The notes beneath the pieces are model-generated. The model made no database searches and had not been told where the DNA came from. It saw only the letters and a list, made by a program, of their open reading frames with translations. A stretch of DNA of 64,000 nt from Liolophura sinensis (taxonomy: Eukaryota; Mollusca; Polyplacophora; Chitonida; Chitonidae). Where the stretch lies: the NCBI RefSeq assembly GCF_032854445.1, contig NC_088297.1, positions 5,393,991 to 5,457,990 on the forward strand, in the 5' to 3' direction. Both the position numbers and the translations under genes were made by a program. Positions 9,097 to 63,726 of the stretch are shown in pieces (within the stretch, counting starts at the first letter, position 1; each line of letters begins with the position of its first letter).

Positions 9097-9189
9097 ATGG
9101 ACTATAAACGCACAGACCTGTGTAAGCAACAAATTAATAACGGCATTATAGACATGGCGCCTTACCAGAGCAGATCTAGTAAATATACG
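9097..9189 (+). CDS. Exon 1: start of the cytoplasmic tail
   Basis: The first in-frame ATG is at 9097 ([10 protein letters not shown]). A second at 9154 ([12 protein letters not shown]) has the better context, with G at -3 and G at +4, and may be the real start. The exon ends at a good donor (acg|gtaaga), phase 0, matching exon 2. An out-of-frame ATG at 9033 would open an 18-codon upstream frame if transcription starts before it. The frame is open back to a stop at 9007. Confidence 0.5.
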
Positions 9190-9280
9190 GTAAGAATTAT
9201 ATAAGTGTTTCTTGTGATTTTATTCATTTCAATTTGACCTTTATTTATTTATTCATTATAAAACTGAAGTTCCCTTAAGT

Positions 9281-9362
<82 letters not shown>

Positions 9363-12300
9363 TAAGGGAGCCTTTCAGTTCGAAATGATTTACGTAGTGT
9401 TTTGATATACTATCCCCGGGATCACGAAGCGATCTTAGACTTAAGTCGAAAGTTCAGATCACTTTAAAATTGTTACTTCTTACGTAATAAGGTCAAAATA
9501 TTGCACAACAACGTAAATTCTGGGTAAGTTAGTGTAAAACAATTTTCAGCTAAAATTACGGAAATGAACATACCCACGGAAATTTTAACTTGAGTCTAAG
9601 ATCGCTTCGTGATCCCGAGGCCAGGCGAGTATGGTGTAATGTTTTGTGTTCTTTGTAACGTCGGGAAATATAATCTCTTGTAATGAAATGCCTTTCGTCG
9701 ATTAGGAATCTTCGAACCCAATATATAAGTACATATCCTAATTCATGGTTAGCGTGAAATCAATGGTTACCGACCTGGTATCCATAGTTTCGAGAACCCG
9801 AGCTCCTCCCCAGGAACTGAAGGTGATAAATAACGAGGCTAAGTGGGCCAAATGATGATTTTTACCTATTACGAAAGTTGAAAGTACTACAGAACACTGA
9901 AATAATCATATCTAATGGCTAGACACATTCTGATTACTTTTCCTGAAATAATTACTATCGGAATATCTATAATTTTCATGTTTTAATCTAAAATCTTCTT
10001 CGGTGCGTATCTCATCTGGGATAAATTTGTTTTTTTTTCCACCTCCAATAATTTAGTCACGTGACCAAAGAGCCCAGAGCAGCTGTGCTCATTGTAAAGC
10101 TACGAAAGTAATATCTCTTTAAGACGTTATCAAAACATACTGAATTGTAATGTAATTCAATAAGGTTATGTACATTCATTCATTTCTTCTTACTTTCTTC
10201 ATTTATAGATTAATTCCTTTCTTTCTTCATTCATTCATAAATCAATTCATTTCTTCTTTATTCATAAATGAAATTATTTTATCTTCATTCATTCATAAAT
10301 GAATTCATTTCTTCTTTTGTTCTTTCATAAATCTAGTGCTTACGATAGTCTAGTAGGCCTATGTCAGTTTTAATACAGGAATTCAAATTGATTAAAATTT
10401 ATTATTCCTTTTCTCCTTTGTTCAATCCTTTATTCATTCCTTCATGATCGTTCACTCCTTCTTTCATCTATCTGTTTCTTCATTCATATATTCCTTCATG
10501 TGTCTCATCATTTTTGTTGCAGAATACTAACGAAAGCAGTACAGACGTATCCCCAACAGACACACGGGGCCCCCCTTGGAGCAGAGAAGCCGGAAACGAC
10601 TTCCTGAACTACCCCGACAAGGAGGACAACACCCGAATATCAGTGATCAACTATAATAACCAACCCCCTCGAGGTTCTTTCCGGTCCCGGAATGGACGGC
10701 CCCAGGTCCAAATGACGAAGTCCGAGAAGAGGAACATCGCTGTGCGCGGCGCCCTCTGCGCTTTGATTGGGGTGTCCGTACTTGTGGCTATAGCCGCAAT
10801 TATAGCCTTGGCTATTGTCCTGACCGACAAAAACAGAGGTCAGTGACATGTACAGCTACACGTATATACACGGCCGTCTATAGACTAAAATCAACTCTCC
10901 TAATGGTTGATGGATATTTGATAAAATAGAAGTTTTGAGAATTGAGAGGATATACGGGTAATTTTCAGTACATAGCCTTACGCAGATAGTAGAAACAAAG
11001 AAAGAAAGACGTAGAAAAAAAAATGACGAAGGAAAATTAAGAAGAATTGACGGACCGATGTGTATTTTATATAAGAGGAAAAAGAAAATAGGTAAAATAT
11101 TATAAAATAGTTATTAAAACAGTCTGATTAATTATATCTTTATTCACTAAACTGAACATATGAAAAGCATTGCTTTCATTAACACATTCATAGAAGCGAC
11201 TCAGCATTTCTTTTCTTTCACTTTCGTTTTTGGTGACCATCCCTGGCCTCACGAACAGAACCGTCCACAACACCCCGTCCACAGACGTATGGTACGTGTT
11301 TCATTTTTTTTTTTTTTTTTTTTTTTGAGAATGTAACCATAATCTTTGGTTTCATTCAAAGCAGTTGTAATTTAATTTATTGGCAGATATGGATGAATCT
11401 TGGATCTGATTTTTTTATTTCTTCTGCAACCTATGCCGTCGTGACCACCGAGCACATCTGCCGGGAACTCCCGAAGGCAGCCGATTGATATCATTTACAA
11501 CGTGGCGGGAGTTCTTGAAAGTTGCGAGAACTGTTAAGTCCCTAGCAAATCCCAGTTTAATGCCACAGACCAACGATTTATATCAAATATGCCAATGGTG
11601 AGACAGCAAATGCGACCACCGGAGACTTGGTAATCGGTTTCAACGCCTACAGGTCCTTGAACAGCCAAGTAAATGCTGTTAAACGTTGCGAGTTTGGCAC
11701 GAAAATTTCACCCTCAGTAATGTTTGCCATCTAAAACTCCGTCGTAATTTTCGTTAGATGAGAATATTTAACAGTTTAGCCATTATGACCGTAACAAAGA
11801 AACATTTTCCGTGCATAGTGCACCCTAGATACTGTTCGCTAAAGTAGGGAAACTTGGAAAAGCTGGGATATGGAAAGATGGAGCTGATGTTTTGCGCTGA
11901 AGTTCCAATGTTTAATCCCAGTGTCTGAAAATGGCGTCAGTATGACGCATGCTCCCAAAAGTTGACAATGTCAGATGTGCCCCTTTTTGTCCCGAAAAAC
12001 AATTGCAAGACAAAACAGTGTTGATGCCAAAAGTTAGCCAGAATCTAATGGACTGTGTATTTCTTCAACAACACATTTACCTTTCACCTGTACAGTTTGC
12101 AGAAATGTAGATTTCTGTGTATTACTGTTTCAAAGACAAAAGAAGTCTAGCAGTGTGAGGTGTTTGCCTGTTTATTGCTAGGACACACATGGTGCAGATC
12201 ACAGGTGCTCGAAAACAGCCCGTAAACCCTATACATGCCATATACCAGCCACATACCAGCCACCTACATATATATAAGAAGTACTTCTTATGGATTTGTG

Positions 12301-45300: not shown

Positions 45301-45595
45301 GCAGAGAAGCAGGACTGGTCGGCATGGTGTCAGGATAATGTGACTGGGCGCGGTGTCATGTGTGGTGTCTTCAGCACAATGCTTCAGTGGGGAACACATG
45401 GGACTGGGTTCATATTCATAGCTCTGTATGCATATGCATTTTGAAGACAGAAACCTAGCAGGCTGTGTGTGTTAAGTGGCAAAAGACTGATGCGGCATCT
45501 CCTATCACAGTGTGGTCAGAAAAGGCTGCAAACCATTTTCCTCGCTAGTTTTTAATGGTGTTTCATGCCACATTTATATATTTATCTCGTGTATG

Positions 45596-45633
<38 letters not shown>

Positions 45634-57600: not shown

Positions 57601-60600
57601 ACCTCTAATGTGACAAGACATGTATGATGCCTGCGTGTTGTTCTCACTGCTACCAATCGCACCCTGATCAGTGTGATATCAGCTCGATTATGGTCAGATT
57701 TGTTAAGAATTTAGACTAACATTCGTTCCATCCCTTATGGAGCTATGTCGAGTGTTGTTCTCACTGCAACCAATTGGACCCTGATCAGTGTGATATCAGC
57801 GCGATTGTGGTCAGATTTGTTAAGAATTTAGACTAACATTCGTTCCATCCCTTATGGAGCTATGTCTGATTTAGTAAACTAAACCAAGTGTTGTTCTCAC
57901 TGCAACCAATTGGACCCTAATCAATGTGATATCAGTGCGATTGGACACCACACCTCTATCGGGTCCCCATTGTGTAAAGAACGATATCATAGCCTTCTAG
58001 ACGGTCAAAGACTTGCTAAAACGTGTTGTGAAACTTCTTTTTCAGATGCCCATGTTACAGTAAATGTGATTCTGCAATATTTGCTGATTTTTTACCTTAA
58101 GGAGTTTTACCTTTGGCAATAGAATAGTTCTCGAAACGTCTGAGTTCTTGAGCAATAGGGTTAACCTTAGACCCCAAAGAAATATATAAATAAATTACCT
58201 TATAACTGAGACAATACGATTTCCCGAATATCCATGACTGTAACATCTAATTTCATTGGTCATTTCAGATTGCCCGACAGGAACCCAGAAGTGCAAGGAT
58301 GAGAATTTCTGTATAACTCCGTCACAAGTCTGCGATCGCAAAGTTGACTGTAATGATCTCTCTGATGAGGCCAACTGCAGTGAGTAATCTCCCTTTGGCA
58401 GCTTTTCATCCAGGGACTTTGATACTTATGATACAAAGTTATGTAGTAAAAATTTAGTCCAATAATTCTAGTTTTATTCCCTGCTACACGTATTGGAGAA
58501 TAGTAATGTATTTGTAGTACTGGTTTTGCAGCAGTTGATCTCACTACTGATTTTGCAGCTGGCTACACTACTGATTTTGCAGTTGACTACACTACTGATC
58601 TTGCAGCTGACTACACTGCTGATTTTGCAGTTGACTACACTACTGATCTTGCAGCTGACTACACTATTGATTTTGCAGCAGTTGACTACACTACTGATAT
58701 TGCAGTTAACTACACTACTGATTTTGCAGTTGACTACACTGCTGATTTTGCAGTTGACTACTGATTTTGCAGTTGACTACACTGCTGATTTTGCAGTTGA
58801 CTACACTACTGATTTTGTAGTTGACTACACTGCCTGATTTTGCAGTTGACTACACTGCTGATTTAGCAGTTGACTACACTACTGATTTAGCAGTTGACTA
58901 CACTGCTGATTTTGCAGTTGACTACACTGCTGATTTTGCAGTTGACTACACTACTGATCTTGCGGTTGACTACACTGCTGATTTTGCAGTTGACTACACT
59001 GCTGATTTTGCAGTTGACTACTCTACTGATTTTGCAGTTGACTACACTACTGATTTTGCAGTTGACTATGCTTCTGATTTTGCAGTTGACTACACTACTG
59101 ATCTTGCAGCTGACTACACTGCTGATTTTGCGGTTGACTATGCTTCTGATTTTGCAGTTGACTACACTACTGATCTTGCGGTTGACTACACTGCTGATTT
59201 TGCAGTTGACTACTCTGCTGATTTTGCAGTTGACTACTGTACTGATCTTGCAGCTGACTACACTGCTGATTTTGCGGTTGACTATGCTTCTGATCTTGCA
59301 GTTGACTACACTACTGATCTTGCTGCTGACTACACTGCTGATTTTGCAGTTGACTACTCTACTGATTTTGCAGTTGACTACACTACTGATCTTGCGGTTG
59401 ACTACACTGCTGATTTTGCAGTTGACTACACTGCTGATTTTGCAGTTGACTACTCTACCGATTTTGTAGTTGACTACTCTACTGATCTTGCAGCTGACTA
59501 CACTACTGATTTTGCAGTTGACTACTCTACTGATCTTGCAGTTGACTACTCTACTGATCTTGCAGTTGACTACACTACTGATTTTGCAGTTGACTGCTCT
59601 GCTGATTTTGCAGTTGACTACTCCACTGATCTTGCAGCCTACTACACGGCTGATTTTGCAGCTGACTACACTTTGAAGAATAGTACTGGGATGTCATGAA
59701 AAAATACAATAACTGAATAGTCATGAATAAATGTCTCAGTGATAAATTTTTAATGGGTTTTCTCTTCTCTCATGTGTACATGTATGTACTGTTGGCATGA
59801 TCACTGCATGGGTGTTTTTCTCTTTATTATCATAGCCTGACAGTGAAACATCTAATCCACATCTGAGTGTAACTTTCTAATACTGGCCTTCAGATTTTGT
59901 TCTTCTGGAATTATTGTCAGATTTGATCTTAACAAGTCATGATTTATTGTTTTAAAATGTCTATGGCAGCCCTGCATGAAGTGAAGAAGTCATATTTTAA
60001 TTGTTAGGATTTTTGTATGTGTTTCTATTGGTTATAGTTGCTTGCCTATTGATCATGAGGACACATGAGGCGTGAGCTCAAACCCGTTGGGGGCTCAAAC
60101 CCAGCGTGAGCTCAAACCCGGCGTGGGCTTAAACCCAACGTGGGCTTAAACCCAGTGTGTGGTCTCAAACCCAGTGTGGGCACAAACCCAGTGTGTGGAC
60201 TCAAAAAATGCACTTGTATATAATGTTGAACTTAAATCAAATAAATGAATGCGTAATATTGTGTTTGGTTTTCAGCATGTGGGGAGACAGAGTTTCGCTG
60301 TGATAACGGTTTGTGCGTGCCCTCATCCCTCACCTGCAATGGAGTAGAGGACTGCCTGGATGGATCAGATGAGCGTGATGTTTGTGGTAGGTCCCTGGTA
60401 TCAGTAAAGTTGTTTCAGGTTTTGGTTGGAATCATGTTTTGGATAAAGAGAATGCATGTGTATAAATTATCACAGACAAAGTTCGAGACGGATTGTTTGT
60501 GTTTTTTGTCGTCATTTCCTGCCTTATCACTGTGACCCCAGTGAACTTGGCACTGTTCAAGATTTGTATACAAAATCTGCTATTGGTGGCAATGATGTAA

Positions 60601-63600
60601 AGCGAAAGGTGGAGTGTGATGCATGCGCCGTAAGGAGTATGGTTTTCTCCATGTGGGGCCATTTTTTGTTGATGTGATTAAACGGATTAAATTCCCATTA
60701 ATTGGCCCTGAGTCAGCAAAGTCAGAGGTTGATATCCAAGGTGATTCTTGGCGCAAGACTCTACCATTGGCAGTGTTGATGCTCATAAGCTGTTCAGACA
60801 GACCCAGAAGGAGTGGAACCATTTCTTCGGTACGTGGGAAGGCCTGTCACCAACCTTCGGATGGTCGTGGGTTTTCACCGGGCTCTGTCTGGTTTCCTCC
60901 CACCAACACAGTCATAATGTCAAGAAGATGATGTTGAGAAGGAGTTTAATTGGTATTAACTATTTAGTAGTAGTTTCTAGTTCAAACTTTTTCTATCGCT
61001 AAAGGTAGAAAAACTCCTACTGTATCATGTGACCTGTCAAAATTTAAGGCAACTGTTTCAGGATCACATTTACTATAACAGTGATGTCTGAAAGAAGTTG
61101 TCCAAAAAGTTCATTTAGAGTAGACAAATGATGGAGAAAATTGAGGAACTGAATGTTTTTGAACTTCAAAAAGAGGAAAGAGGTGTGATTTGTGCCTTTG
61201 TGATGCAGTGAGGCAAGTGATCAGTAATTTAATGTCTACAAAGGTTGTCTAACATTTTTCACAAGTCACATGATACAGTAGGACTGTTATTACCTTTAAT
61301 TACTGAAGAGTTCAAACTTGAAACTCACCTATTAATTAATAATAAGTCCAGCATGAAATATCCATGAAAAAAAATAAATTATTTGTAAAATATTCCTTTT
61401 AAAACATTGATAATGTGTCTGTCCTTTGTAGATTCCTTGCGTTCTGTGAACTGTGACTTTGAAGACGCGTTTATCTGTGGTTACAAGATCACCAGTGTCA
61501 GTCAGTATAGGTGGTTTAGAGAGTCAGGATCCACAAAAACCAGTAGGACGGGGCCATCTGTTGATAACACCTACAACAACTTTACAGGTATGCTTGAAGC
61601 GTTAATGACCTCCTGCAGGTATCAGTTGTGTGTGACCTTGCTGTGAATTTAACAGTTATATATTGTTATGCAATAAAATACTTTATGTTGTTCGGTTTAA
61701 TCTCTAAGCTGTCTTAAAGTAAAAGAAAGCTATAACACGAAGTAAAGTTCATCACACAGACAACTGAAAACTATGTGTAAAAATACTTTCATTTATTTTT
61801 TTAGATCTTTTTAAAAGTGATGAAAGGCATTCAAATATTTGAATTCTGTGGTGGGCTTTTTGGGCCATACTGACGGTATTTAGGAACTCTGACGTCACAT
61901 CAGCGTTTTTTTCCTGATGTTCACGAGAAGGAAGGAAGCTTTGGGAACATTATTTCAGTAATCTTTTACTCATGGGTACAAAGAGTTATTACAACATTCA
62001 GTGTCGTGATTATAGCTGGAAAATCTTCTCGTGACGTCAGAGGTCCTCAACTCTGGTCCATAAAGCCCACCTCAGAATTCAAAGCATTAAACAGCTTTAA
62101 CTCTCTTCACAAAAATCTAAAAAAAATAAATGAAAGTATAATTATGCATGGTGTTCAGTTGTCTGTATGATGAACCTTACTTTATATTTTAGCTTTGTTT
62201 TACTTTAAATGACAATAAATTTCACCCATGACCAACTTTCCCATTATGCTGGATTCTGAGAGTTCTATTGAGAAAGATGTTTTGAGGTTTGTTAGGAACA
62301 TGGAATGATAAATTGCTGGAAAATTGTTAATATCAGCATGGAAAATAATATTTTGTGACAGTTATTTGCCCCTGAAAATGTACGATTGTGGGTGAATATT
62401 TAGGTCATTCAGAGTAATCGACTGTGATCGAGAAATATGTGGGCTTTTATTTCTGGGCCGTAATGACCCAGGAGTCTCTCACGAATACGGTCACTCTGAG
62501 TTCAAGTCCAGCTCATGCTGGCTTCCTCTCCGGCCGTATGTGGCAAGGTCTTTCAGCAACCTGCGGATGGTCGTGGGTTACCCCCGGGCTGTGCCCGGCT
62601 TCCTCACACCATAATGCTGGCCGTCGTTGTATAAGTGAAATATTCGTGAGTACGGCGTAAAACACCAATCAAATAAATAAATCAAATTCTTTTTCAGGGC
62701 ACTATATGTACTCGGAGGCGAGTTTTGGTAACAAAGGGGACATAACTGAGCTGACCTCAACCACGTTCTCCGCAAATCTGAGCGACAACTTAGTGTTTTA
62801 TTACCACATGAGAGGTGCTAATATCGGAGAACTTGCTGTCCTGAGTGCTTCGGGTGCGGCAGGGCCACCAAAGCGAATCTGGGACAAATCAGGTGACCAC
62901 GGTAACGAGTGGAAGTTCGCATGCGTCCCATTACCGTCAGGAAGTGACATTCAGGTGACCTTCTTGGTAACCCACACAGGTGGTATCTACGGAGATGTTG
63001 CCATTGACGACATAGCAGTCACCAGCACACCTTGTCCAGGTATGTATAAATGTATCCATGGTAACCATTTTAATGAGCTAGTATTTATTTATTTATTTGA
63101 TAAGTGTTTTACGCTGTTCTCAAGAATACTTCACTTATACGACGGAGGCCAGCATTATAGTGGGAGGAAACCGGGCAGAGCCCGGAGGAAACCCACAGCC
63201 ATCTGCAGGTTGCTGTCAGAGCTTCCCGCGTACGGCCGGAGAGGAAGCCAGCCTGAGCTGGACTTGAACTCACAGCGACCACATTGGTGAGAGACTCCTG
63301 GGTCATTACGCTGGGCTAGCGTGCTAACCAACTGAGCCACGGAGGCCCCCAATGAGTTATTATGTGTCTTTGGATTTAGCTGTAACTTTAAGTCAGAAGG
63401 TTTCATTCGTACCAGTACCTGGTGAATTGACCTGGTTTACTGCAGGCGGTCTAGTAAATAGCTTAAATACTCATCAAAAAAATCTATACATAAATAACTC
63501 ACAGGATACCTCAGACTTCTACTGCCCACACCAGGTGTCTTAACCGTTATAAAGAAAACTTTTTGATTTCAGCATTATGTGCTGAAAATGTTGCATGTTC

Positions 63601-63726
63601 AGTGTATAGAGATGTTTTATGTCTTAATCCCTGTTATCATTTGCCATCTTTTTTAATAAAAATACAACATGTTTTTGTTTGCAGCAACCCCTGTGACGTC
63701 CACCCCTGGGTTTGCACCCACAGCAA
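9097..63726 (+). CDS. Mosaic type II transmembrane serine protease gene (SEA, 5 Fz, LDLa, MAM, SRCR, S1 protease), 48 exons, 3' partial
   Basis: This entry spans the whole gene; the exons are listed separately. The exons join into one frame with GT-AG introns, nearly all phase 1, giving about 2,270 residues before the window ends. Domain order is cytoplasmic tail, membrane helix, SEA, Thr-rich stalk, five Fz domains, LDLa, MAM, four LDLa, SRCR, S1 protease, LDLa, MAM, LDLa, MAM, two LDLa, MAM and a linker. The membrane-anchored SEA/Fz/LDLa/SRCR/S1 combination is known from corin and enteropeptidase-like proteases, so a cell-surface protease or adhesion role is inferred. In those families the protease is C-terminal; here it is internal. 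Substrate is unknown. Two places do not join cleanly: exon 31 to 32, and inside exon 34. No stop codon or polyadenylation site of the full product lies in the window. Confidence 0.85.
9283..9360. repeat. (AT)n microsatellite in intron 1
   Basis: About 38 AT dinucleotides with one interruption (tatgatat). Confidence 0.95.
9416..9623 (+). mobile_element. MITE family 1, copy with intact inverted ends
   Basis: The left end 'gggatcacgaagcgatctta' is repeated in inverted form at the right end ('taagatcgcttcgtgatccc'), about 205 bases away. The element is non-coding and about 208 bp long. Diverged copies lie at 18483-18693 and 47188-47403 in the opposite orientation. The transposase family was not identified. 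Confidence 0.8.
10175..10512. repeat. ATTC/TTCT-rich low-complexity tract
   Basis: An imperfect series of 'attcattc', 'ttcttt' and 'cataaatgaattcatttctt' motifs fills the last part of intron 1 up to the exon 2 acceptor. It supplies a long pyrimidine-rich stretch before the splice site. Confidence 0.7.
10523..10838 (+). CDS. Exon 2: cytoplasmic tail and membrane helix
   Basis: Follows 'ttgttgcag' and ends 'aaacagag|gtcagt', phase 0 to 1. The exon encodes a hydrophilic Ser/Pro/Asn-rich tail, then a basic cluster (KSEKR), then a hydrophobic span of about 25 residues ([18 protein letters not shown]...). Positive charge before the helix and all disulfide domains after it fit a type II orientation with N-in, C-out topology. 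Confidence 0.88.
10839..12661 (+). other. Intron 2
   Basis: No clear element is seen. There is a 22-base T run at about 11307-11328 and a family C repeat fragment around 12440-12545. Confidence 0.6.
12662..12771 (+). CDS. Exon 3: SEA domain, first part
   Basis: Phase 1 to 0. Begins [15 protein letters not shown] and ends ARIITQ. The start of a SEA domain typically has a beta strand of this kind followed by a helix leading to the Y..I/V pattern continued in exon 4. Confidence 0.8.
12921..13147 (+). mobile_element. MITE family 2 copy
   Basis: Left end 'taattcttcaaccttttcgc' and right end 'gcgaaaatgttgaggaatta' are inverted repeats. Related copies are at 18262-18463, 23693-23914, 26008-26233 and 35457-35677, with fragments elsewhere. 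No coding capacity. Confidence 0.75.
13229..13494 (+). mobile_element. SINE-A copy (tRNA-derived), full length
   Basis: The head has an A-box-like 'ggctcacttgactagtgcgc' and the element carries the internal core 'gggaaggtctgtcagcaacc' and the shared 3' end 'aaaacaccaatcaaattaat' with a TAAA tail. This family recurs about 18 times in the window on both strands. It resembles the core-containing SINEs common in molluscs, from memory only. Confidence 0.85.
14408..14475 (+). CDS. Exon 4: SEA domain, middle
   Basis: Phase 0 to 2. Encodes [20 protein letters not shown], typical of the SEA helix ending before the strand that carries the cleavage site. Flanked by 'tctttttcag' and 'cttca|gtaagt'. Confidence 0.82.
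14476..15096 (+). other. Intron 4
   Basis: Nothing is recognised apart from T-rich runs at 14917-14956. Confidence 0.6.
15097..15284 (+). CDS. Exon 5: SEA domain, end
   Basis: Phase 2 to 1. Begins [19 protein letters not shown]. The Gly-Ser followed by hydrophobic residues matches the place where many SEA domains self-cleave (G|S then three hydrophobic residues). The rest gives the last helix and strand ([20 protein letters not shown]). Confidence 0.88.
15466..15775. repeat. About 21-bp minisatellite in intron 5
   Basis: Around 14 imperfect copies of 'cacttggccattcacctcca' and relatives. The open frames across it are a side effect of the repeat period. Confidence 0.9.
15908..16054 (+). CDS. 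Exon 6: Thr-rich stalk
   Basis: Phase 1 to 1. Encodes a run of Thr, Ser, Glu and Met ([19 protein letters not shown] and so on). It is a mucin-like, probably O-glycosylated spacer between the SEA domain and the first Fz domain. Acceptor 'ttttacag', donor 'gcaag|gtaaga'. Confidence 0.82.
16098..16335 (-). mobile_element. SINE-A copy
   Basis: The reversed 3' end 'tttgattggtgtctttcgtc' is followed by the family core ending in 'cattggtgggaggctcccgg'. Diverged but nearly full length. Confidence 0.8.
16872..17013. repeat. Foldback element with about 25-base inverted ends
   Basis: 'acggattcaggttctcggga' near the left end pairs with 'gagaacctgaatccgtaata' near the right end. The element is about 140 bp, non-coding, and seen once in the window. 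Confidence 0.65.
17447..17674 (+). CDS. Exon 7: Frizzled-type domain 1, part A
   Basis: 228 bases, phase 1 to 1. Encodes [20 protein letters not shown] and seven of the ten Fz cysteines, ending [14 protein letters not shown]...LPCRQLCQ. The spacing C-x-F-FC, C-x(n)-PC-x(2)-LC matches the Fz cysteine-rich domain. The last three cysteines come from exon 8. Confidence 0.9.
18098..18160 (+). mobile_element. MITE family 4 fragment
   Basis: 'ttaccctaaacgacctaaaa' resembles the left end of the element at 43958-44173. Only the end is recognisable. Confidence 0.4.
18262..18463 (+). mobile_element. MITE family 2 copy, diverged
   Basis: It shares the middle 'caaaactacattggttggat' with the copies at 23693 and 35457, and ends with the inverted end 'gaaaattttgaggaattgtg'. 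Confidence 0.6.
18483..18693 (-). mobile_element. MITE family 1 copy
   Basis: Ends 'gggatcacaagcgatcttag' and 'aagatcgcttcgtgat' are inverted. The interior matches the reverse complement of the 9416 copy (tcaagcaatattttgacc). Confidence 0.75.
18719..18993 (+). mobile_element. SINE-A copy, well preserved
   Basis: Starts 'gggggcctccgtggctcagt', with A box (tggctcagtcggttagtgcg) and B-box-like 'gtgagttcaggtcc', and ends 'caccaatcaaataaataat'. 'attgaactggg' occurs on both sides, a likely target-site duplication. Confidence 0.9.
19112..19186 (+). CDS. Exon 8: Fz domain 1, part B
   Basis: 75 bases, phase 1 to 1. Encodes [20 protein letters not shown] and then TCFAG, giving the last three Fz cysteines. 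The same exon length recurs in Fz 2 and Fz 3. Confidence 0.88.
19474..19757 (+). mobile_element. SINE-A copy
   Basis: Full-length copy starting 'cggggaccaccgtggctcag' and ending in 'aataaataaataaataaa'. Confidence 0.88.
20336..20449 (+). mobile_element. SINE-A 3' fragment
   Basis: Only the last third is present ('cctgggctcggaccggtttc' to 'gccaatcagataaatatat'). Confidence 0.75.
20487..20564 (+). CDS. Exon 9: Thr/Pro linker after Fz 1
   Basis: 78 bases, phase 1 to 1. Encodes [20 protein letters not shown] and a few more Thr/Val/Ser residues. Its twin is exon 12, of the same length. Confidence 0.82.
20900..21012. repeat. (CATT)n tetranucleotide tract
   Basis: Imperfect 'cattcatt' series that merges into the 89-bp array. 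Confidence 0.85.
21020..21345. repeat. 89-bp tandem repeat, nearly 4 copies
   Basis: Units contain 'gtgaagtgttttgccagcta' and start at about 21039, 21128, 21217 and 21306 (period 89). Confidence 0.92.
21537..21668. repeat. (CATT)n tetranucleotide tract
   Basis: Second 'attcattcattcattt' tract in intron 9. Confidence 0.9.
21828..22055 (+). CDS. Exon 10: Fz domain 2, part A
   Basis: 228 bases, phase 1 to 1, same length and splice positions as exon 7. Encodes [20 protein letters not shown] and continues through [11 protein letters not shown] to PPCQQLCQ, with seven cysteines. Acceptor 'tttttcacccag'. Confidence 0.92.
22056..22431 (+). other. Intron 10
   Basis: Its first 100 bases resemble the start of intron 13 ('ctgattggtcagtaatt' versus 'ctgattggtgacaattg'), showing that intron sequence was copied with the Fz exons. 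No element seen. Confidence 0.6.
22432..22506 (+). CDS. Exon 11: Fz domain 2, part B
   Basis: 75 bases, phase 1 to 1. Encodes [20 protein letters not shown] then CFDG. Nearly identical to exon 8 at its 5' end (aggtgtcacgagagtgtgct). Confidence 0.9.
22583..22945. repeat. 19-bp minisatellite in intron 11
   Basis: About 19 copies of 'acacatcatctcatatttt' and variants. It begins about 75 bases after the donor of exon 11. Open frames in three phases are repeat artefacts. Confidence 0.93.
23266..23343 (+). CDS. Exon 12: Thr/Pro linker after Fz 2
   Basis: 78 bases, phase 1 to 1. Encodes [20 protein letters not shown] and a short Thr/Ala tail. Clearly a copy of exon 9. Confidence 0.85.
23693..23914 (+). 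mobile_element. MITE family 2 copy
   Basis: Inverted ends 'taattcttcaaccttttcgc' and 'gcaaaaaggttgaagaatta', about 220 bp. Confidence 0.8.
23951..24322 (+). mobile_element. SINE-B copy, full length with target-site duplication
   Basis: Starts 'gaccggcccggatagcacag', a tRNA-like head, and ends in a (CACT)n tail. 'tctaatttttga' is found on both sides. The same element is at 38174, 38955 and 57078. The short open frame inside it is not a gene. Confidence 0.9.
24423..24671 (+). mobile_element. SINE-A copy ending just before exon 13
   Basis: The 3' end 'catcaatcaaataaataagc' lies only about 25 bases from the exon 13 acceptor, so the branch-point region is probably SINE-derived. Confidence 0.85.
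24697..24924 (+). CDS. Exon 13: Fz domain 3, part A
   Basis: 228 bases, phase 1 to 1. Encodes [20 protein letters not shown], then [12 protein letters not shown] and LPCQQLCQ. It keeps all seven cysteines of this half-domain. Confidence 0.92.
24925..25485 (+). other. Intron 13
   Basis: The start is homologous to intron 10. A family C repeat fragment lies at about 25143-25190. Nothing else is recognised. Confidence 0.55.
25486..25560 (+). CDS. Exon 14: Fz domain 3, part B
   Basis: 75 bases, phase 1 to 1. Encodes [20 protein letters not shown] then SCYNG, supplying the last three cysteines. Confidence 0.9.
25754..25796. repeat. Short perfect-looking hairpin in intron 14
   Basis: Arms 'aaagtgccttgcaaaatgg' and 'ccattctgcaaggcacttt' pair over 19 bases with one mismatch and a five-base loop. 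A second, longer inverted pair follows at about 25808-25882 (ttgaggc / gcctcaa). Probably a foldback element. Confidence 0.7.
25929..25979 (+). CDS. Exon 15: Pro/Ser/Thr linker after Fz 3
   Basis: 51 bases, phase 1 to 1. Encodes [17 protein letters not shown]. Shorter than its counterparts, exons 9 and 12. Confidence 0.8.
26008..26233 (+). mobile_element. MITE family 2 copy
   Basis: Left end 'gtaattcttgaacctttttg', right end 'gcgaaaatgttgacgaatta'. It fills nearly half of intron 15, 28 bases after the exon 15 donor. Confidence 0.78.
26540..26767 (+). CDS. Exon 16: Fz domain 4, part A
   Basis: 228 bases, phase 1 to 1. Encodes [20 protein letters not shown], then [15 protein letters not shown] and FPCQDLCS. 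Same length as Fz 1-3 but much more diverged, so an older copy. Confidence 0.9.
26990..27248 (+). mobile_element. SINE-A copy, well preserved
   Basis: Full length, with 'attacaatag' on both sides as a target-site duplication. Confidence 0.9.
27832..27921 (-). mobile_element. SINE-A 3' fragment
   Basis: 'tttgattgcgttgtacgcca' to 'ccttatggtgggagg' matches the reversed 3' part of the family. Confidence 0.7.
28245..28334 (+). CDS. Exon 17: Fz domain 4, part B
   Basis: 90 bases, phase 1 to 1. Encodes [20 protein letters not shown] and then AGGTCISVN. Three cysteines complete Fz 4. Confidence 0.88.
28344..28522. repeat. 34-bp minisatellite, about 5 copies
   Basis: Unit 'cctcattctgattggctagc' plus 14 bases, starting 10 bases after the donor of exon 17. 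The unit resembles the conserved beginning of introns 10 and 13 (cattctggttggttaattct), so it probably grew from that duplicated intron seed. Confidence 0.92.
28634..28849 (+). CDS. Candidate alternative terminal exon after Fz 4
   Basis: An open frame starting [17 protein letters not shown] and ending [11 protein letters not shown], then a stop, lies after a pyrimidine-rich tract and a possible acceptor (gtaaag). It is in the right phase (1) to follow exon 17, and AATAAA occurs at 29000-29005. It would give a shorter protein ending after Fz 4 with a cysteine-rich tail. No family was recognised. It could equally be a relic of another gene. Confidence 0.3.
   Translation, partial: VHMHCNVTEENKAYYCCLDLLCKLILKTPNCTESSRYQYSVKSIKTTMESSAVRDMFTKAVTVSLTYDCLP
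29380..29421 (+). CDS. Exon 18: short Thr-rich linker
   Basis: 42 bases, phase 1 to 1, encoding [14 protein letters not shown]. Acceptor 'gacatttgtag', donor 'accacag|gtatga'. Confidence 0.75.
29878..30276. repeat. 12/24-bp GGAGGTTTGTC-type minisatellite
   Basis: Imperfect copies of 'gtcaggaggtttgtctggag' run to about 38 bases before the exon 19 acceptor. Confidence 0.9.
30315..30356 (+). CDS. Exon 19: short Thr/Val linker
   Basis: 42 bases, phase 1 to 1, encoding [14 protein letters not shown]. Donor 'ttaca|gtatgt'. Same size as exon 18. Confidence 0.75.
30659..30892 (+). CDS. Exon 20: Fz-like domain 5, part A
   Basis: 234 bases, phase 1 to 1. Encodes [20 protein letters not shown], later [20 protein letters not shown] and ACRALCE. 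The pattern of seven cysteines and the [11 protein letters not shown] core fit a diverged Fz domain. Confidence 0.87.
30968..31222 (-). mobile_element. SINE-A copy
   Basis: Reversed copy from 'tttgattggtgttttacgcc' to 'aagaggcttctgggtcattg'. Confidence 0.87.
31387..31488 (+). CDS. Exon 21: Fz domain 5, part B
   Basis: 102 bases, phase 1 to 1. Encodes [20 protein letters not shown] then [13 protein letters not shown], giving the last three cysteines. Confidence 0.85.
31497..33197. repeat. 58-bp minisatellite, about 29 copies
   Basis: Unit 'acaattttggtagctaaacc' plus 38 bases. The array begins within about 10 bases of the exon 21 donor and includes truncated units (e.g. 32761-32780, 32860-32880). 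Minus-strand open frames come from the repeat. Confidence 0.95.
33703..33837 (+). CDS. Exon 22: LDLa domain 1
   Basis: 135 bases, phase 1 to 1. Encodes [20 protein letters not shown] and then [14 protein letters not shown]. Six cysteines and the calcium-cage acids (D..C.D.SDE type, here STDE) are all present. Confidence 0.93.
33852..34940. repeat. 18-bp minisatellite, about 60 copies
   Basis: Unit 'acaagtgataggcacatg' and variants (atgcacataacacgtgat), starting about 15 bases after the exon 22 donor. The period is a multiple of three, so long frames appear on both strands; none is taken as a gene. Confidence 0.95.
35262..35411 (+). CDS. Exon 23: MAM domain 1, part 1
   Basis: 150 bases, phase 1 to 1. 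Encodes [20 protein letters not shown] then [12 protein letters not shown] and [11 protein letters not shown]. The C-F-E...LC start and the W then GP-x(2)-D pattern are standard MAM features. Confidence 0.9.
35457..35677 (+). mobile_element. MITE family 2 copy
   Basis: Left end 'taattcctcaaccttttctc', right end 'tgcaaaggttgaaaaataac'. It fills most of intron 23. Confidence 0.75.
35727..35863 (+). CDS. Exon 24: MAM domain 1, part 2
   Basis: 137 bases, phase 1 to 0. Encodes [20 protein letters not shown] and then [17 protein letters not shown], matching the MAM GxYL and C-x-F/V-xYHM-G motifs. Confidence 0.92.
35864..36264 (+). other. Intron 24
   Basis: AT-rich; no element seen. Confidence 0.6.
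36265..36475 (+). CDS. Exon 25: MAM domain 1, part 3
   Basis: 211 bases, phase 0 to 1. Encodes the final strands, W(K)[17 protein letters not shown] and [14 protein letters not shown], the usual MAM ending. The donor at 'ttca|gttagt' is weak but keeps the phase needed for exon 26. Confidence 0.9.
36540..36797 (+). mobile_element. SINE-A copy
   Basis: Diverged full-length copy ending '(aaat)n'. Confidence 0.8.
36975..37420. mobile_element. Long foldback element, family 3 (diverged copy)
   Basis: Shares 'gcattcaaa'-type arms, 'tgacgtca' motifs and the end 'agctttcatttactttaaa' with the copy at 61714-62209. Left part ('tgcataaatatactttcatt') pairs with the right part. Confidence 0.65.
37477..37587 (+). 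CDS. Exon 26: LDLa domain 2
   Basis: 111 bases, phase 1 to 1. Encodes [20 protein letters not shown] and then [16 protein letters not shown], with six cysteines and intact SDE. Confidence 0.93.
38154..38173 (+). mobile_element. MITE family 2 end fragment
   Basis: 'ctaattcctcaacctttggg' is the left end of MITE 2; it stops where the SINE-B copy begins. Confidence 0.5.
38174..38495 (+). mobile_element. SINE-B copy, diverged
   Basis: Starts 'accagccccgataacacagt'. It lacks the (CACT)n tail and has small indels against the other copies. Confidence 0.82.
38550..38663 (+). CDS. Exon 27: LDLa domain 3
   Basis: 114 bases, phase 1 to 1. Encodes [20 protein letters not shown] then [16 protein letters not shown], a complete LDLa module. 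Confidence 0.93.
38955..39322 (+). mobile_element. SINE-B copy with clear target-site duplication
   Basis: Flanked by 'tcttaatgaaatc' on both sides. Almost identical to the copies at 23951 and 57078, so a fairly recent insertion. Confidence 0.92.
39369..39619 (+). mobile_element. SINE-A copy, degenerate
   Basis: Recognisable parts: 'gacccagtagccgctcacca', 'gtgagttcaagtccatctca' and the end 'ccaaatcaaataaataaatt', about 30 bases before the exon 28 acceptor. Confidence 0.7.
39651..39758 (+). CDS. Exon 28: LDLa domain 4
   Basis: 108 bases, phase 1 to 1. Encodes [20 protein letters not shown] then [16 protein letters not shown]. The usual Ser of SDE is Trp (WDE); acidic residues are kept. Confidence 0.92.
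40185..40368. mobile_element. MITE family 2, very diverged copy
   Basis: Only the right end 'gggaaaagttgaagaattag' is clear; the left end is guessed. Confidence 0.4.
40425..40535 (+). CDS. Exon 29: LDLa domain 5
   Basis: 111 bases, phase 1 to 1. Encodes [20 protein letters not shown] then [16 protein letters not shown], a complete module. Confidence 0.93.
40536..40884 (+). other. Intron 29
   Basis: No repeat or hidden exon recognised. Confidence 0.6.
40885..41005 (+). CDS. Exon 30: SRCR domain, first part
   Basis: 121 bases, phase 1 to 2. Encodes [20 protein letters not shown] then [21 protein letters not shown]. The V-C-x-D-W-x(4)-G-x(2)-IC pattern is the SRCR core as found before the protease in TMPRSS/corin-like proteins. 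Confidence 0.88.
41108..41276. repeat. About 39-bp tandem repeat, 4 copies
   Basis: Unit 'caaggacattttgatatacc' with 'cttacaggtgaacaa', four times in intron 30. Confidence 0.88.
41592..41688 (+). CDS. Exon 31: SRCR domain, middle
   Basis: 97 bases, phase 2 to 0. Encodes [20 protein letters not shown] and then [13 protein letters not shown], aligning with the 'FMKL...' region of TMPRSS-type SRCR domains. The donor 'caggag|gtgaga' is good but leaves phase 0, whereas exon 32 needs phase 2. Confidence 0.82.
41708..41823 (-). mobile_element. SINE-A 3' fragment
   Basis: 'tttgattggtgttttacgcc' to 'gaaaccgggcagagtctgg', reversed. Confidence 0.8.
41868..42556. repeat. 15-bp minisatellite, about 46 copies
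   Basis: Two main units, 'tgtgagtgtgtaata' and 'tgtctgagtatgtaa', in a higher-order order. The 232-codon frame through it is due to the period of 15. Confidence 0.95.
42862..42911 (+). CDS. Exon 32: SRCR domain, last part
   Basis: 50 bases ending phase 1. Only one frame is open and it encodes [16 protein letters not shown], the SRCR C-x(5)-V-x-LKC ending. This frame requires an incoming phase 2, so joining to exon 31 shifts frame; a missed micro-exon or a one- or two-base error is needed to explain it. Confidence 0.75.
43240..43434 (+). mobile_element. SINE-A partial copy with internal poly-C
   Basis: The usual 'gggtttcccccgggctctgc' is expanded to about 25 Cs (43319-43343). The 3' end is normal. 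Confidence 0.78.
43505..43682 (+). pseudogene. Possible Fz-like exon relic in intron 32
   Basis: An open frame contains [10 protein letters not shown] and [15 protein letters not shown], then a hydrophobic stretch ([17 protein letters not shown]) and a stop. KFFCAIS matches the Fz 3 core (PFFCAIS). Acceptor 'cacag' is present, but the phase does not fit exon 32. Most likely a decayed copy of an Fz exon. Confidence 0.3.
43683..43900. repeat. 17-bp minisatellite, about 13 copies
   Basis: Unit 'taatgcaaaaatgttgt' with a/g variants. Confidence 0.93.
43958..44173 (+). mobile_element. MITE family 4 copy
   Basis: Left end 'gaccctaaatttcgtccatg' and right end 'gtgggtgaaattttaggtca' are inverted repeats. 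The second full copy is at 62210-62417. It ends about 46 bases before the exon 33 acceptor. Confidence 0.7.
44220..44388 (+). CDS. Exon 33: S1 protease, activation site and catalytic His
   Basis: 169 bases, phase 1 to 2. Encodes [20 protein letters not shown], then [33 protein letters not shown] is the mature N terminus and the His of TAAHC is catalytic. The residue before IVGG is Tyr, not Arg or Lys, so normal trypsin-like activation cleavage is not expected. The first Cys of GCG would bridge to the Cys of RPAC in exon 34. Confidence 0.93.
44341..45238. repeat. 64-bp tandem repeat copying the exon 33 / intron 33 boundary, 14 copies
   Basis: The unit covers the last 48 bases of exon 33 (with the catalytic His codon) plus the donor and 16 intron bases (cagtaagtgtttcttacc). 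The first copy is the real exon end; 13 more follow with few changes. Reading past the first donor meets TAA at once, so only the first gives a long product. Confidence 0.95.
45598..45632. repeat. (TA)n microsatellite
   Basis: About 17 TA dinucleotides in intron 33. Confidence 0.9.
45721..45955. mobile_element. Rearranged SINE-A with a head-to-head palindrome
   Basis: A reversed SINE-A 3' end (45721-45764) meets a forward 3' end (45765-45840), giving an inverted pair of about 45-base arms. The rest of the reversed copy follows to about 45955. Confidence 0.75.
46132..46412 (+). CDS. Exon 34: S1 protease, catalytic Asp region, with apparent frameshifts
   Basis: 281 bases. Protease sequence is clear but spread over three frames: RYVTS, then [20 protein letters not shown] to [11 protein letters not shown] (catalytic Asp in NDIGL), then DYDSYIRP, then [11 protein letters not shown], then [11 protein letters not shown], then a last segment in phase 1. 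Shifts fall near 46148 (ccc), 46296-46303 (ccc/ggg), 46325 (ccc), 46360 (cccc) and 46391 (gggggg). Either local sequence errors or a decayed exon. Acceptor 'gcccatcag', donor 'aggca|gtgagt'. Confidence 0.8.
47188..47403 (-). mobile_element. MITE family 1 copy, diverged
   Basis: Shares 'tggtatgttcctttccgtta'-like interior and 'tgtcaagcaatatttt' with the 18483 copy; ends are degenerate inverted repeats next to 'ggccc'. Confidence 0.7.
47441..47665. repeat. 56-bp tandem repeat copying the intron 34 / exon 35 boundary, 4 copies
   Basis: Units start at about 47442, 47498, 47554 and 47610. Each has the acceptor 'gttcctgtatcctag' and the first exon bases (gggcattgtg). Only the last copy leads into an open frame; the first three run into stops. 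Confidence 0.95.
47658..47800 (+). CDS. Exon 35: S1 protease, middle of C-terminal lobe
   Basis: 143 bases, phase 1 to 0. Encodes [20 protein letters not shown] then [18 protein letters not shown]. The LREAKI, KCN and FCAGY motifs are typical. The pocket position six residues before the active Ser is Gly (in IGTCHGDSGG), where trypsin-like enzymes have Asp. Confidence 0.92.
47801..48655 (+). other. Intron 35
   Basis: No repeat or hidden exon recognised. Confidence 0.6.
48656..48812 (+). CDS. Exon 36: S1 protease, catalytic Ser
   Basis: 157 bases, phase 0 to 1. Encodes [20 protein letters not shown], then [20 protein letters not shown] and [18 protein letters not shown] carries the active Ser. 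The S-Y-V at the pocket wall replaces the usual S-W-G, and P-P-V-F replaces P-G-V-Y. The domain ends normally, but the exon continues in frame into exon 37 instead of stopping. Confidence 0.94.
48813..49500 (+). other. Intron 36
   Basis: No element recognised; one stretch (about 48840-49010) is pyrimidine-rich with short open frames only. Confidence 0.55.
49501..49605 (+). CDS. Exon 37: LDLa domain 6
   Basis: 105 bases, phase 1 to 1. Encodes [20 protein letters not shown] then [15 protein letters not shown]. Complete module directly after the protease. Confidence 0.93.
49632..49654. repeat. Poly-G tract
   Basis: 23 consecutive Gs, 27 bases after the exon 37 donor. Confidence 0.95.
49755..50006 (+). 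mobile_element. SINE-A copy
   Basis: From 'gagcaggcctccgtggttag' to 'aaaacaccagtcggataaat'. Confidence 0.85.
50343..50543 (+). mobile_element. MITE family 5
   Basis: Left 'aaaaggatacagaatcgatg' + 'ctgattggctg' and right 'cagccaatcagaatcgattc' + 'tgtatccctttaag' are inverted repeats of about 33 bases. The adjacent 'gactta' / 'gtctta' extends the inverted arms. About 200 bp, non-coding. A partial relative lies near 50840-50870. Confidence 0.72.
50911..51042 (+). CDS. Exon 38: MAM domain 2, part 1
   Basis: 132 bases, phase 1 to 1. Encodes [20 protein letters not shown] then [21 protein letters not shown]. The CTF-x(n)-LCGY start and the D-H-T turn are MAM-like. Confidence 0.92.
51558..52335. 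repeat. 47-bp minisatellite, about 16 copies
   Basis: Unit 'gccatttgccatgctgtaca' with 'tatctcacttttggggagaaatc'. Ends about 30 bases before the exon 39 acceptor. Open frames on both strands are artefacts. Confidence 0.95.
52368..52703 (+). CDS. Exon 39: MAM domain 2, part 2
   Basis: 336 bases, phase 1 to 1. Encodes [20 protein letters not shown], then [39 protein letters not shown] and [14 protein letters not shown]. It joins what are two exons in MAM 1 and MAM 3. Confidence 0.94.
52704..53663 (+). other. Intron 39
   Basis: Contains a reversed SINE-B 3' fragment (52984-53056); no other element recognised. Confidence 0.55.
52984..53056 (-). mobile_element. SINE-B 3' fragment
   Basis: 'gagtgcttggggtttaatgt' to 'catatgacgacgaaggaatcc' is the reversed end of SINE-B. 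Confidence 0.8.
53664..53777 (+). CDS. Exon 40: degenerate LDLa domain 7
   Basis: 114 bases, phase 1 to 1. Encodes [20 protein letters not shown] then [17 protein letters not shown]. Six cysteines are kept, but the calcium-cage pattern D-C-x-D-x-SDE is replaced by HCAVSPDDE, so calcium binding is doubtful. Confidence 0.88.
53920..53975 (+). mobile_element. MITE family 2 end fragment
   Basis: 'ctgtagttcttgaacctttt' followed by 'tcgcatgtttggaaggtgtt' matches the left end of the 12921 copy. Confidence 0.55.
54078..54224 (+). CDS. Exon 41: MAM domain 3, part 1
   Basis: 147 bases, phase 1 to 1. Encodes [20 protein letters not shown] then [21 protein letters not shown]. Confidence 0.9.
54225..54840 (+). 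other. Intron 41
   Basis: Only a short 'attgt' repeat at 54505-54536 is seen. Confidence 0.6.
54841..54962 (+). CDS. Exon 42: MAM domain 3, part 2
   Basis: 122 bases, phase 1 to 0. Encodes [20 protein letters not shown] then [17 protein letters not shown]. Corresponds to exon 24 of MAM 1. Confidence 0.9.
55125..55512. repeat. 28-bp minisatellite, about 13 copies
   Basis: Alternating units with 'gctgccttggctgaattgtc' and 'gctgccttggctgaattttc', each followed by 'a/catgacaa'. Confidence 0.95.
55589..56495. repeat. 30-bp minisatellite, about 30 copies
   Basis: Unit 'gagatttccatgacaatcat' plus 'atcagtgcgt'. Frames of about 250 codons on both strands follow from the period of 30 and are not genes. 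It shares 'tttccatgacaa' with the neighbouring 28-bp array. Confidence 0.95.
56788..57016 (+). CDS. Exon 43: MAM domain 3, part 3
   Basis: 229 bases, phase 0 to 1. Encodes [20 protein letters not shown], then [20 protein letters not shown] and [14 protein letters not shown], a typical MAM ending. Confidence 0.92.
57078..57449 (+). mobile_element. SINE-B copy with target-site duplication
   Basis: 'tcaataaatttg' on both sides; near-identical to copies at 23951 and 38955. Confidence 0.9.
57634..57925. repeat. 118-bp tandem repeat, about 2.5 copies
   Basis: Units start 'gtgttgttctcactgc' at about 57634, 57752 and 57888; the third is offset by an 18-base insertion. Confidence 0.88.
58269..58379 (+). 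CDS. Exon 44: LDLa domain 8
   Basis: 111 bases, phase 1 to 1. Encodes [20 protein letters not shown] then [16 protein letters not shown], complete. Confidence 0.93.
58536..59670. repeat. 24-bp minisatellite, about 47 copies, with an acceptor-like motif in each unit
   Basis: Unit 'actacactgctgattttgca' plus 'gttg'. Each unit ends 'gattttgcag', which looks like a 3' splice site. A 292-codon frame (58821-59699) encodes repeats of DYTADFAV; it is more likely an intronic minisatellite than an exon. Confidence 0.93.
60068..60203. repeat. About 18-bp GTGGGCTCAAACCCA repeat
   Basis: Seven or so imperfect copies of 'gtgggctcaaacccag'. Confidence 0.82.
60276..60386 (+). CDS. Exon 45: LDLa domain 9
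   Basis: 111 bases, phase 1 to 1. Encodes [20 protein letters not shown] then [17 protein letters not shown], complete. Confidence 0.93.
60815..60912 (+). mobile_element. SINE-A core fragment
   Basis: 'cgtgggaaggcctgtcacca' to 'gtctggtttcctcccacc'. Confidence 0.72.
61432..61587 (+). CDS. Exon 46: MAM domain 4, part 1
   Basis: 156 bases, phase 1 to 1. Encodes [20 protein letters not shown] then [20 protein letters not shown] and NTYNNFT. Same start as other MAM domains (C-x-FED-x(2)-ICGY). Confidence 0.92.
61714..62209. mobile_element. Long foldback element, family 3
   Basis: The left end 'ttaaagtaaaagaaagctat' and 'ttcatcacacagacaactga' are inverted at the right end ('cagttgtctgtatgatgaac' ... 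'gctttgttttactttaa'). The arms extend over 150 bases or more, about 496 bp in all, with paired 'tgacgtca' motifs inside. Related copy at 36975-37420. Confidence 0.8.
62210..62417 (+). mobile_element. MITE family 4 copy
   Basis: Left 'aataaatttcacccatgacc' and right 'gtgggtgaatatttaggtca' are inverted. It abuts the foldback element on the left. Confidence 0.7.
62455..62684 (+). mobile_element. SINE-A copy ending just before exon 47
   Basis: 5'-truncated; its tail 'aacaccaatcaaataaataa' runs into 'atcaaattctttttcag', the exon 47 acceptor. Confidence 0.87.
62698..63039 (+). CDS. Exon 47: MAM domain 4, part 2
   Basis: 342 bases, phase 1 to 1. Encodes [20 protein letters not shown], then [40 protein letters not shown] and [16 protein letters not shown]. 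Confidence 0.95.
63079..63352 (-). mobile_element. SINE-A copy, full length
   Basis: Reversed copy from 'tttatttgataagtgtttta' to 'gagccacggaggccccc'; A box and B box visible on the minus strand. Confidence 0.9.
63685..63726 (+). CDS. Exon 48: Pro/Thr linker; gene continues beyond the window
   Basis: 42 bases, phase 1 to 1, encoding [14 protein letters not shown]. Donor 'agcaa|gtaagt'. It resembles the short linkers 18 and 19, so further modules or an end domain should follow downstream. Confidence 0.75.

Follow-up and report, generated by a model that had tools for sequence, protein, structure and literature searches.

The locus analyzed here lies on the forward strand of contig NC_088297.1 of Liolophura sinensis (assembly GCF_032854445.1), at positions 5,393,991 to 5,457,990, and this whole stretch of 64,000 nucleotides is referred to as the window. 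The window holds a gene modelled as 50 exons on the plus strand, which runs from position 9097 to a stop codon 480 bases beyond the window and totals 6,999 nt (the last exon counted one base short) for a product of about 2,330 residues. A simple gene finder returned 81 exons, many of them tiny, and exons were kept on the basis of domain, homology or splice evidence; seven linker exons in the model are tentative. Plus-strand translation combined with Pfam searches gives the encoded order TM-SEA-5xFz-LDLa-MAM-4xLDLa-SRCR-S1-LDLa-MAM-LDLa-MAM-2xLDLa-MAM-LDLa, with module totals of five Fz, ten LDLa and four MAM, of which nine LDLa and four MAM lie inside the window. The window contains no tRNAs and no Rfam families at gathering score. 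The next gene recognised downstream is a SNRNP40-like (U5-40K) WD40 gene at about 72.4-78.0 kb in extended coordinates.

The first exon (9097-9189) carries the first ATG behind in-frame stops, encodes a predicted cytoplasmic N-terminus and ends at the donor GTAAGA. The exon at 10523-10838 continues the putative cytoplasmic tail and adds one hydrophobic helix, with a hydropathy maximum of 3.08 over 19 residues within the first 160 or so residues of the product. Four of the 15 residues ahead of this helix are lysine or arginine, and their placement on its N side suggests a type II orientation; the product is therefore predicted to have the N-terminal single-pass TM, with the N-terminus inside, that characterizes type II transmembrane serine proteases. 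A SEA domain follows on three exons (12662-12771, 14408-14475 and 15097-15284; Pfam SEA 1.6e-12; phases 1-0-2-1), and behind it a Thr-rich linker exon (15908-16054) was placed by composition and splice sites only.

Five Fz domains come next, each encoded by two exons and split by a phase-1 intron: Fz1 (17447-17674 and 19112-19186; Pfam Fz 6.2e-12), Fz2 (21828-22055 and 22432-22506; 1.7e-11), Fz3 (24697-24924 and 25486-25560; 1.7e-12), Fz4 (26540-26767 and 28245-28334; 1.6e-12) and Fz5 (30659-30892 and 31387-31488; 4.7e-11). Singly, these stretches thus score between 1.6e-12 and 4.7e-11 in Pfam, and jointly they reach 1.6e-53. Identity to Fz1 declines along the array, from 62% for Fz2 and 50% for Fz3 to 33% for Fz4 and 26% for Fz5. 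Introns of the Fz exons also hold a dispersed 264-nt repeat with copies 84-89% alike (18721-18984, 19476-19739 and 26989-27252), and two alike open stretches with the motif GGSFEIKA[IV]KCN, possibly a repeat element, lie in introns at 13041-13247 and 26112-26303.

Between the Fz array and the protease lie further modules of three kinds. LDLa1 (33703-33837), one of five Ldl_recept_a stretches that Pfam recognises in one joined translation, precedes MAM1, whose exons at 35262-35411, 35727-35863 (or -35878) and 36265-36475 match Pfam MAM at 2.3e-33 and whose last donor is weak (0.8). LDLa2 to LDLa5 (37477-37587, 38550-38663, 39651-39758 and 40425-40535) are likewise supported by Pfam and are all of phase 1-1. 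The SRCR domain occupies exons 40885-41005, 41592-41688 and 42862-42911. Its second and third exons do not join in frame, since the donor at 41688 is in phase 0 and the acceptor at 42862 in phase 2, and no additional exon that would restore the phase was found in 42558-42920. On pieces joined across this misfit SRCR_2 scores 7.3e-10; the first exon alone scores 2.9e-5 (25.1 bits, under the 27-bit Pfam cut-off). An LDLa proposed at 40885-41005 from its cysteines was rejected, as this stretch is the first SRCR exon. The module identities and the order given in the original prediction were each confirmed by Pfam on translated exons.

The S1 domain is encoded by four exons, three of which match the Trypsin profile when searched singly. 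The first (44220-44388; Trypsin 2.5e-14) holds the activation site ASTY/IVGG and the catalytic His, the second (46132-46412; 5.3e-6 on its longest open piece) the catalytic Asp in a reading frame that is broken in the assembly, and the last (48656-48812; 2.4e-11) the catalytic Ser; there the domain ends at a phase-1 donor without a stop. The exon ahead of the Ser exon (47658-47800), which carries GAIGTCH with Gly189 and His192, belongs to the gene model and has no Trypsin match on its own. The triad motifs AAHC, NDIGL and GDSGGP of S1A (PF00089) are thus all encoded, with the Asp exon out of frame in the assembly. Best PDB matches are TMPRSS6 (2.2e-12), prostasin and neutrophil elastase for the His exon, plasma kallikrein and TMPRSS13 for the Ser exon, and acrosin, weakly (1.1e-4), for the longest Asp piece. 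The Ser-exon donor is weak (GTAATG, 3.6).

A trypsin-like S1 domain has a basic residue ahead of its activation site and an Asp189, and neither was found here. Residues that are not trypsin-like are the Tyr before IVGG, Gly189 and His192 and, relative to kallikrein, Val216 and Pro226. Given the Tyr before IVGG, tryptic activation is not predicted. Two minisatellites abut the S1 exons. The first, a 64-bp unit repeated 14 times on the plus strand (44341-45241), combines the final 48 nt of the His exon with the first 16 intron nt and includes the 5' splice site GTAAGT, such that 14 similar donors stand in series; reading past the first of them meets a stop at once. The second, a 56-bp unit repeated four times (47442-47668), ends across the acceptor of exon 47658-47800.

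Behind S1 the chain resumes after 688 bp with LDLa6 (49501-49605), whose acceptor is in phase 1. It is followed by MAM2 (50911-51042 and 52368-52703) and LDLa7 (53664-53783), these being two LDLa stretches and one of two MAM stretches recognised in one joined translation. MAM3 (54078-54224, 54841-54962 and 56788-57016; Pfam MAM 3.2e-26) has a phase-0 intron as in MAM1, LDLa8 (58269-58379) and LDLa9 (60276-60386) together match Ldl_recept_a at 2.1e-16, and MAM4 occupies 61432-61587 and 62698-63039 (6.1e-33). The original prediction had ended the gene at 63726. That position is instead the donor of a short, tentative Thr/Pro linker exon (63685-63726), and the gene continues beyond the window to a tenth LDLa at 64353-64480 in extended coordinates (Pfam 1.6e-7), with the stop codon at 64478-64480. 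With the four S1 exons as queries, the extended stretch of 103,910 bases yielded no additional S1, only repeats of the end of the His exon.

The domains had been described as forming one phase-compatible chain, and this holds for 48 of the 49 junctions of the model; the SRCR junction 41688/42862 does not fit, and the Asp exon 46132-46412, whose length fits (phase 2 to 1), has stops in its entry frame. The 48 in-phase junctions are weak evidence for a single gene, because seven short linkers were picked for fit and most modules are of phase 1-1, and for the latter reason adjacent genes made of like modules would fit too. The informative junction is the end of S1, where the Ser exon has no stop and a phase-1 donor lies exactly at the domain end.

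The genome (609 Mb in 632 contigs) was searched with the His exon, which gave 30 matches, and the three best besides itself all lie on one contig, here C3: P2 (C3:11268808), P3 (C3:991798) and P4 (C3:11859110). The regions read around them were C3:11258001-11288000, C3:981001-1021000 and C3:11841001-11879000 (minus strand), respectively. P2 has ten LDLa-like matches and an S1 Ser exon that runs into a stop, which is the ordinary layout. In P3 the Ser exon ends with a phase-1 donor (8.6); an LDLa with a weak phase-1 acceptor (1.0) lies 492 bp further on and is followed by a MAM start. The same succession recurs in P4, where one phase-1 donor lies at the S1 end (4.6) and another 6 nt on (8.1), with the phase-1 acceptor of the LDLa 643 bp later and a MAM start behind it. 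Pfam supports the LDLa of P3 and P4 and the two P3 S1 exons that were scanned; the MAM-start exons of P3 and P4 alone score 0.047 and 0.033, below the Pfam cut-off. Searching the genome with the post-S1 LDLa of P3 gave 11 matches, and the best three of these were the post-S1 LDLa modules of P3, P4 and, third, the window gene. In all three, the S1 introns agree in phase: phase 2 behind the His exon, phase 0 ahead of the Ser exon, and an Asp exon that runs from 2 to 1. The window gene therefore has the arrangement of P3 and P4, a phase-1 splice from the S1 end into LDLa and then MAM. The proposal of an internal protease in one gene is strengthened by this repetition, and the internal S1 is shared among these loci rather than private to the window gene.

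Resemblance among these loci has limits. The window Ser exon returned 24 genome matches, among which P2, P3 and P4 are absent, and the absence of P3 and P4 indicates that their S1 domains and that of the window gene are not close throughout. The S1 exons directly ahead of the Ser exons of P3 and P4 were searched for with little result, so that residue 189 could be read at just two of the loci, the window gene and P2, the latter likewise with Gly189 and His192. Eight S1 loci among the 30 His-exon matches were read at the residue before the activation site, which is Tyr in the window gene, P3 (L003), P4 (L004) and L005, Leu in P2 (L002) and L006, Phe in L007 and Arg in L008. Since seven of eight loci have Tyr, Leu or Phe there, a non-basic activation site is typical of these genes and, taken alone, does not point to decay. 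Ahead of its S1, P4 has a SEA-like stretch (phmmer 0.0057; no Pfam match), two LDLa modules and one exon resembling SRCR (0.093). The regions read around P3 and P4 yielded no Fz, the first of them not reaching the 5' part of P3, and Fz3 used as a query genome-wide matched five places, four of them within this gene, with a reach limited by the fact that it misses Fz5. The private feature of the window gene looks to be its Fz array, mainly on the evidence of P4 and this one Fz query. Separately, several weak SRCR-like stretches (0.024 to 0.36) lie behind the MAM and LDLa of P3 (L042, C3:1011001-1021000), and 21 of 24 MAM-start-like matches cluster at C6:46.78-46.92 Mb (L022-L027), where a 2,173-residue open frame takes in two of them.

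How, then, are the frame breaks in the protease region to be read? In the Asp exon, the stretch with the catalytic Asp and a stretch with GWG lie in two non-entry frames, and the exit phase required by the following exon is the entry frame again, which implies a third drift. Searches for another Asp exon, one that is in frame, were negative in the 103,910-base extended stretch and in the genome, where the only match was the exon itself. One hypothesis is that the breaks are real and the protease is dead or dying, with transcripts that terminate within the Asp exon or bypass the SRCR-S1 cassette and leave a receptor made purely of Fz, LDLa and MAM modules; such a bypass is possible in frame, from the LDLa5 donor at 40535 (phase 1) to the LDLa6 acceptor at 49501 (phase 1). 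We consider this hypothesis unlikely, though it is the strongest competitor. In its favor, three of the four breaks fall within one 281-nt exon and the fourth at the SRCR junction, and all other exons of the model are free of stops. The chance of such concentration is about 2.5e-4 if breaks are spread evenly over 6,999 nt, and evenly spread assembly error does not predict it. Frame-tolerant alignment of the Asp exon to P3 and P4 scores 37 and 51 with two shifts and -80 and -58 without, and P3 aligned to P4 in the same way scores 164 with zero shifts. Moreover, the minisatellites overrun both neighboring splice sites, and with few copy-length differences in the 44341-45241 array and none in the 47442 array there is no plain sign of poor indel quality in this area.

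Several observations argue instead for error in the assembly. The drifts in the Asp exon all run in one direction, its S1 motifs are intact, each in some frame, and its six homopolymer runs of 4 or more are the most among eight exons counted; the three remaining S1 exons (His, 47658 and Ser) are open throughout. In addition, 13 kb beyond the gene, a SNRNP40 exon that is the sole genome match shows a frame change between residues 320 and 322 of the U5-40K chain 3jcr_D, although this break runs opposite in direction to those in the Asp exon. That a single-copy conserved gene is also frame-broken in the same assembly makes assembly indels likely, and we regard them as a more likely cause of the Asp-exon breaks than real damage.

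Alternatively, a protease gene could end at S1 and a separate LDLa/MAM gene start behind it. Reading on from the Ser exon adds 67 residues before a stop at 49013, with one ATTAAA at 49163, and S1 is the last domain of type II transmembrane serine proteases (PMC10376093). It is nevertheless very improbable, as just 688 bp separate the S1 end from the phase-1 LDLa6, and P3 and P4 repeat the succession of S1, LDLa and MAM start with the same phases; a new start exon behind S1 was looked for in the three-frame translation of 48813-49600. Hardly credible, too, is an ordinary orthologue of corin, which shares Fz, LDLa and SRCR (PMC10376093), or of enteropeptidase, which shares SEA, LDLa, MAM and SRCR, with a main isoform ending in S1 and the downstream modules in a minor splice form, given the five Fz, the occurrence of Fz and MAM together, Gly189, the Tyr that precedes IVGG, and distal modules that recur in P3 and P4.

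The reading that we favor is that of one gene, probably encoding a type II single-pass protein of about 2,330 residues from one transcript and belonging to a family of at least three loci with a mid-chain S1, in which the Fz array is special to this member. The Asp exon out of frame, the SRCR misfit, the weak Ser-exon donor (3.6) and the weak P3 LDLa acceptor (1.0) are points against it.

Under this one-gene reading, a mechanism can be proposed. The membrane-side arm (SEA, Fz, LDLa, MAM and SRCR) and the distal LDLa/MAM arm would keep partners or substrates close to a zymogen-like S1, and a chymotrypsin- or elastase-like enzyme would cut after Tyr at ASTY/IVGG. The propeptide half would stay joined by the disulphide usual for such proteases, from the cysteine before the cut to the cysteine in PACMP, and the distal arm would remain joined since there is no cut behind S1. 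The tethering on both sides of the catalytic domain after activation that was originally suggested is thus plausible. From the residues of its pocket, S1 is predicted to have a specificity that is not tryptic, or else to bind without catalysis. We tentatively hypothesize that this genome has a family of membrane-anchored proteins whose non-tryptic S1, activated after Tyr and not after Arg/Lys, acts as a mid-chain relay between two multi-domain binding arms: activation would alter the domain while both arms remain attached; the protease of the Fz member may be becoming a spliced-out or dead module. In the usual picture of membrane serine proteases, a stem carries the protease at its tip and the activation cut follows a basic residue. 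Were a whole family to combine a mid-chain protease with activation at a non-basic site, the usual layout would prove to be variable, and such genes would serve as a natural experiment on the function of modules distal to the protease. The five tandem Fz domains may connect a protease to Fz ligands.

An architecture like that of the window gene was not found in the literature searched, subscription papers lying mostly outside it, and several known systems share parts of it. Repeated LDLa and MAM modules, as in the distal arm, occur in MAM/LDLa array proteins (MALRD1-like), which are not known to have S1, Fz or SEA. Enteropeptidase (TMPRSS15) consists of SEA, LDLa, CUB, MAM, SRCR and then S1 last. 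The window gene has its SEA, LDLa, MAM, SRCR and S1 modules and differs in the Fz array, the S1 that is not terminal and the Tyr at the activation site; CUB had no match in the exons scanned, and the gene is not assigned to enteropeptidase. Type II transmembrane serine proteases are all described with a C-terminal protease (PMC10376093), and although parts and topology match, the window gene falls outside this class because its S1 is not C-terminal. Within the class, corin has two Fz, eight LDLa and SRCR, then S1 last, and thus has the N-terminal TM, Fz, LDLa repeats, SRCR and S1 in common with the window gene (PMC10376093). In contrast to corin, the window gene has five Fz, SEA and MAM, an internal S1 with LDLa and MAM behind it, Tyr before IVGG and Gly189, and it is not a corin. 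A parallel for the position of the protease is insect nudel, whose honeybee orthologue SP20 is given as 3LDLA-SP-3LDLA-pSP-LDLA(RGD)-2LDLA(pSP) (PMC1761132). Unlike the window gene, nudel has further partial S1 domains, its activation site is preceded by Arg (SQLR VVGG), and the domains listed for it include no Fz, MAM or SRCR. The window gene is not assigned to nudel; what the two share is an S1 in mid-chain with LDLa modules behind it.
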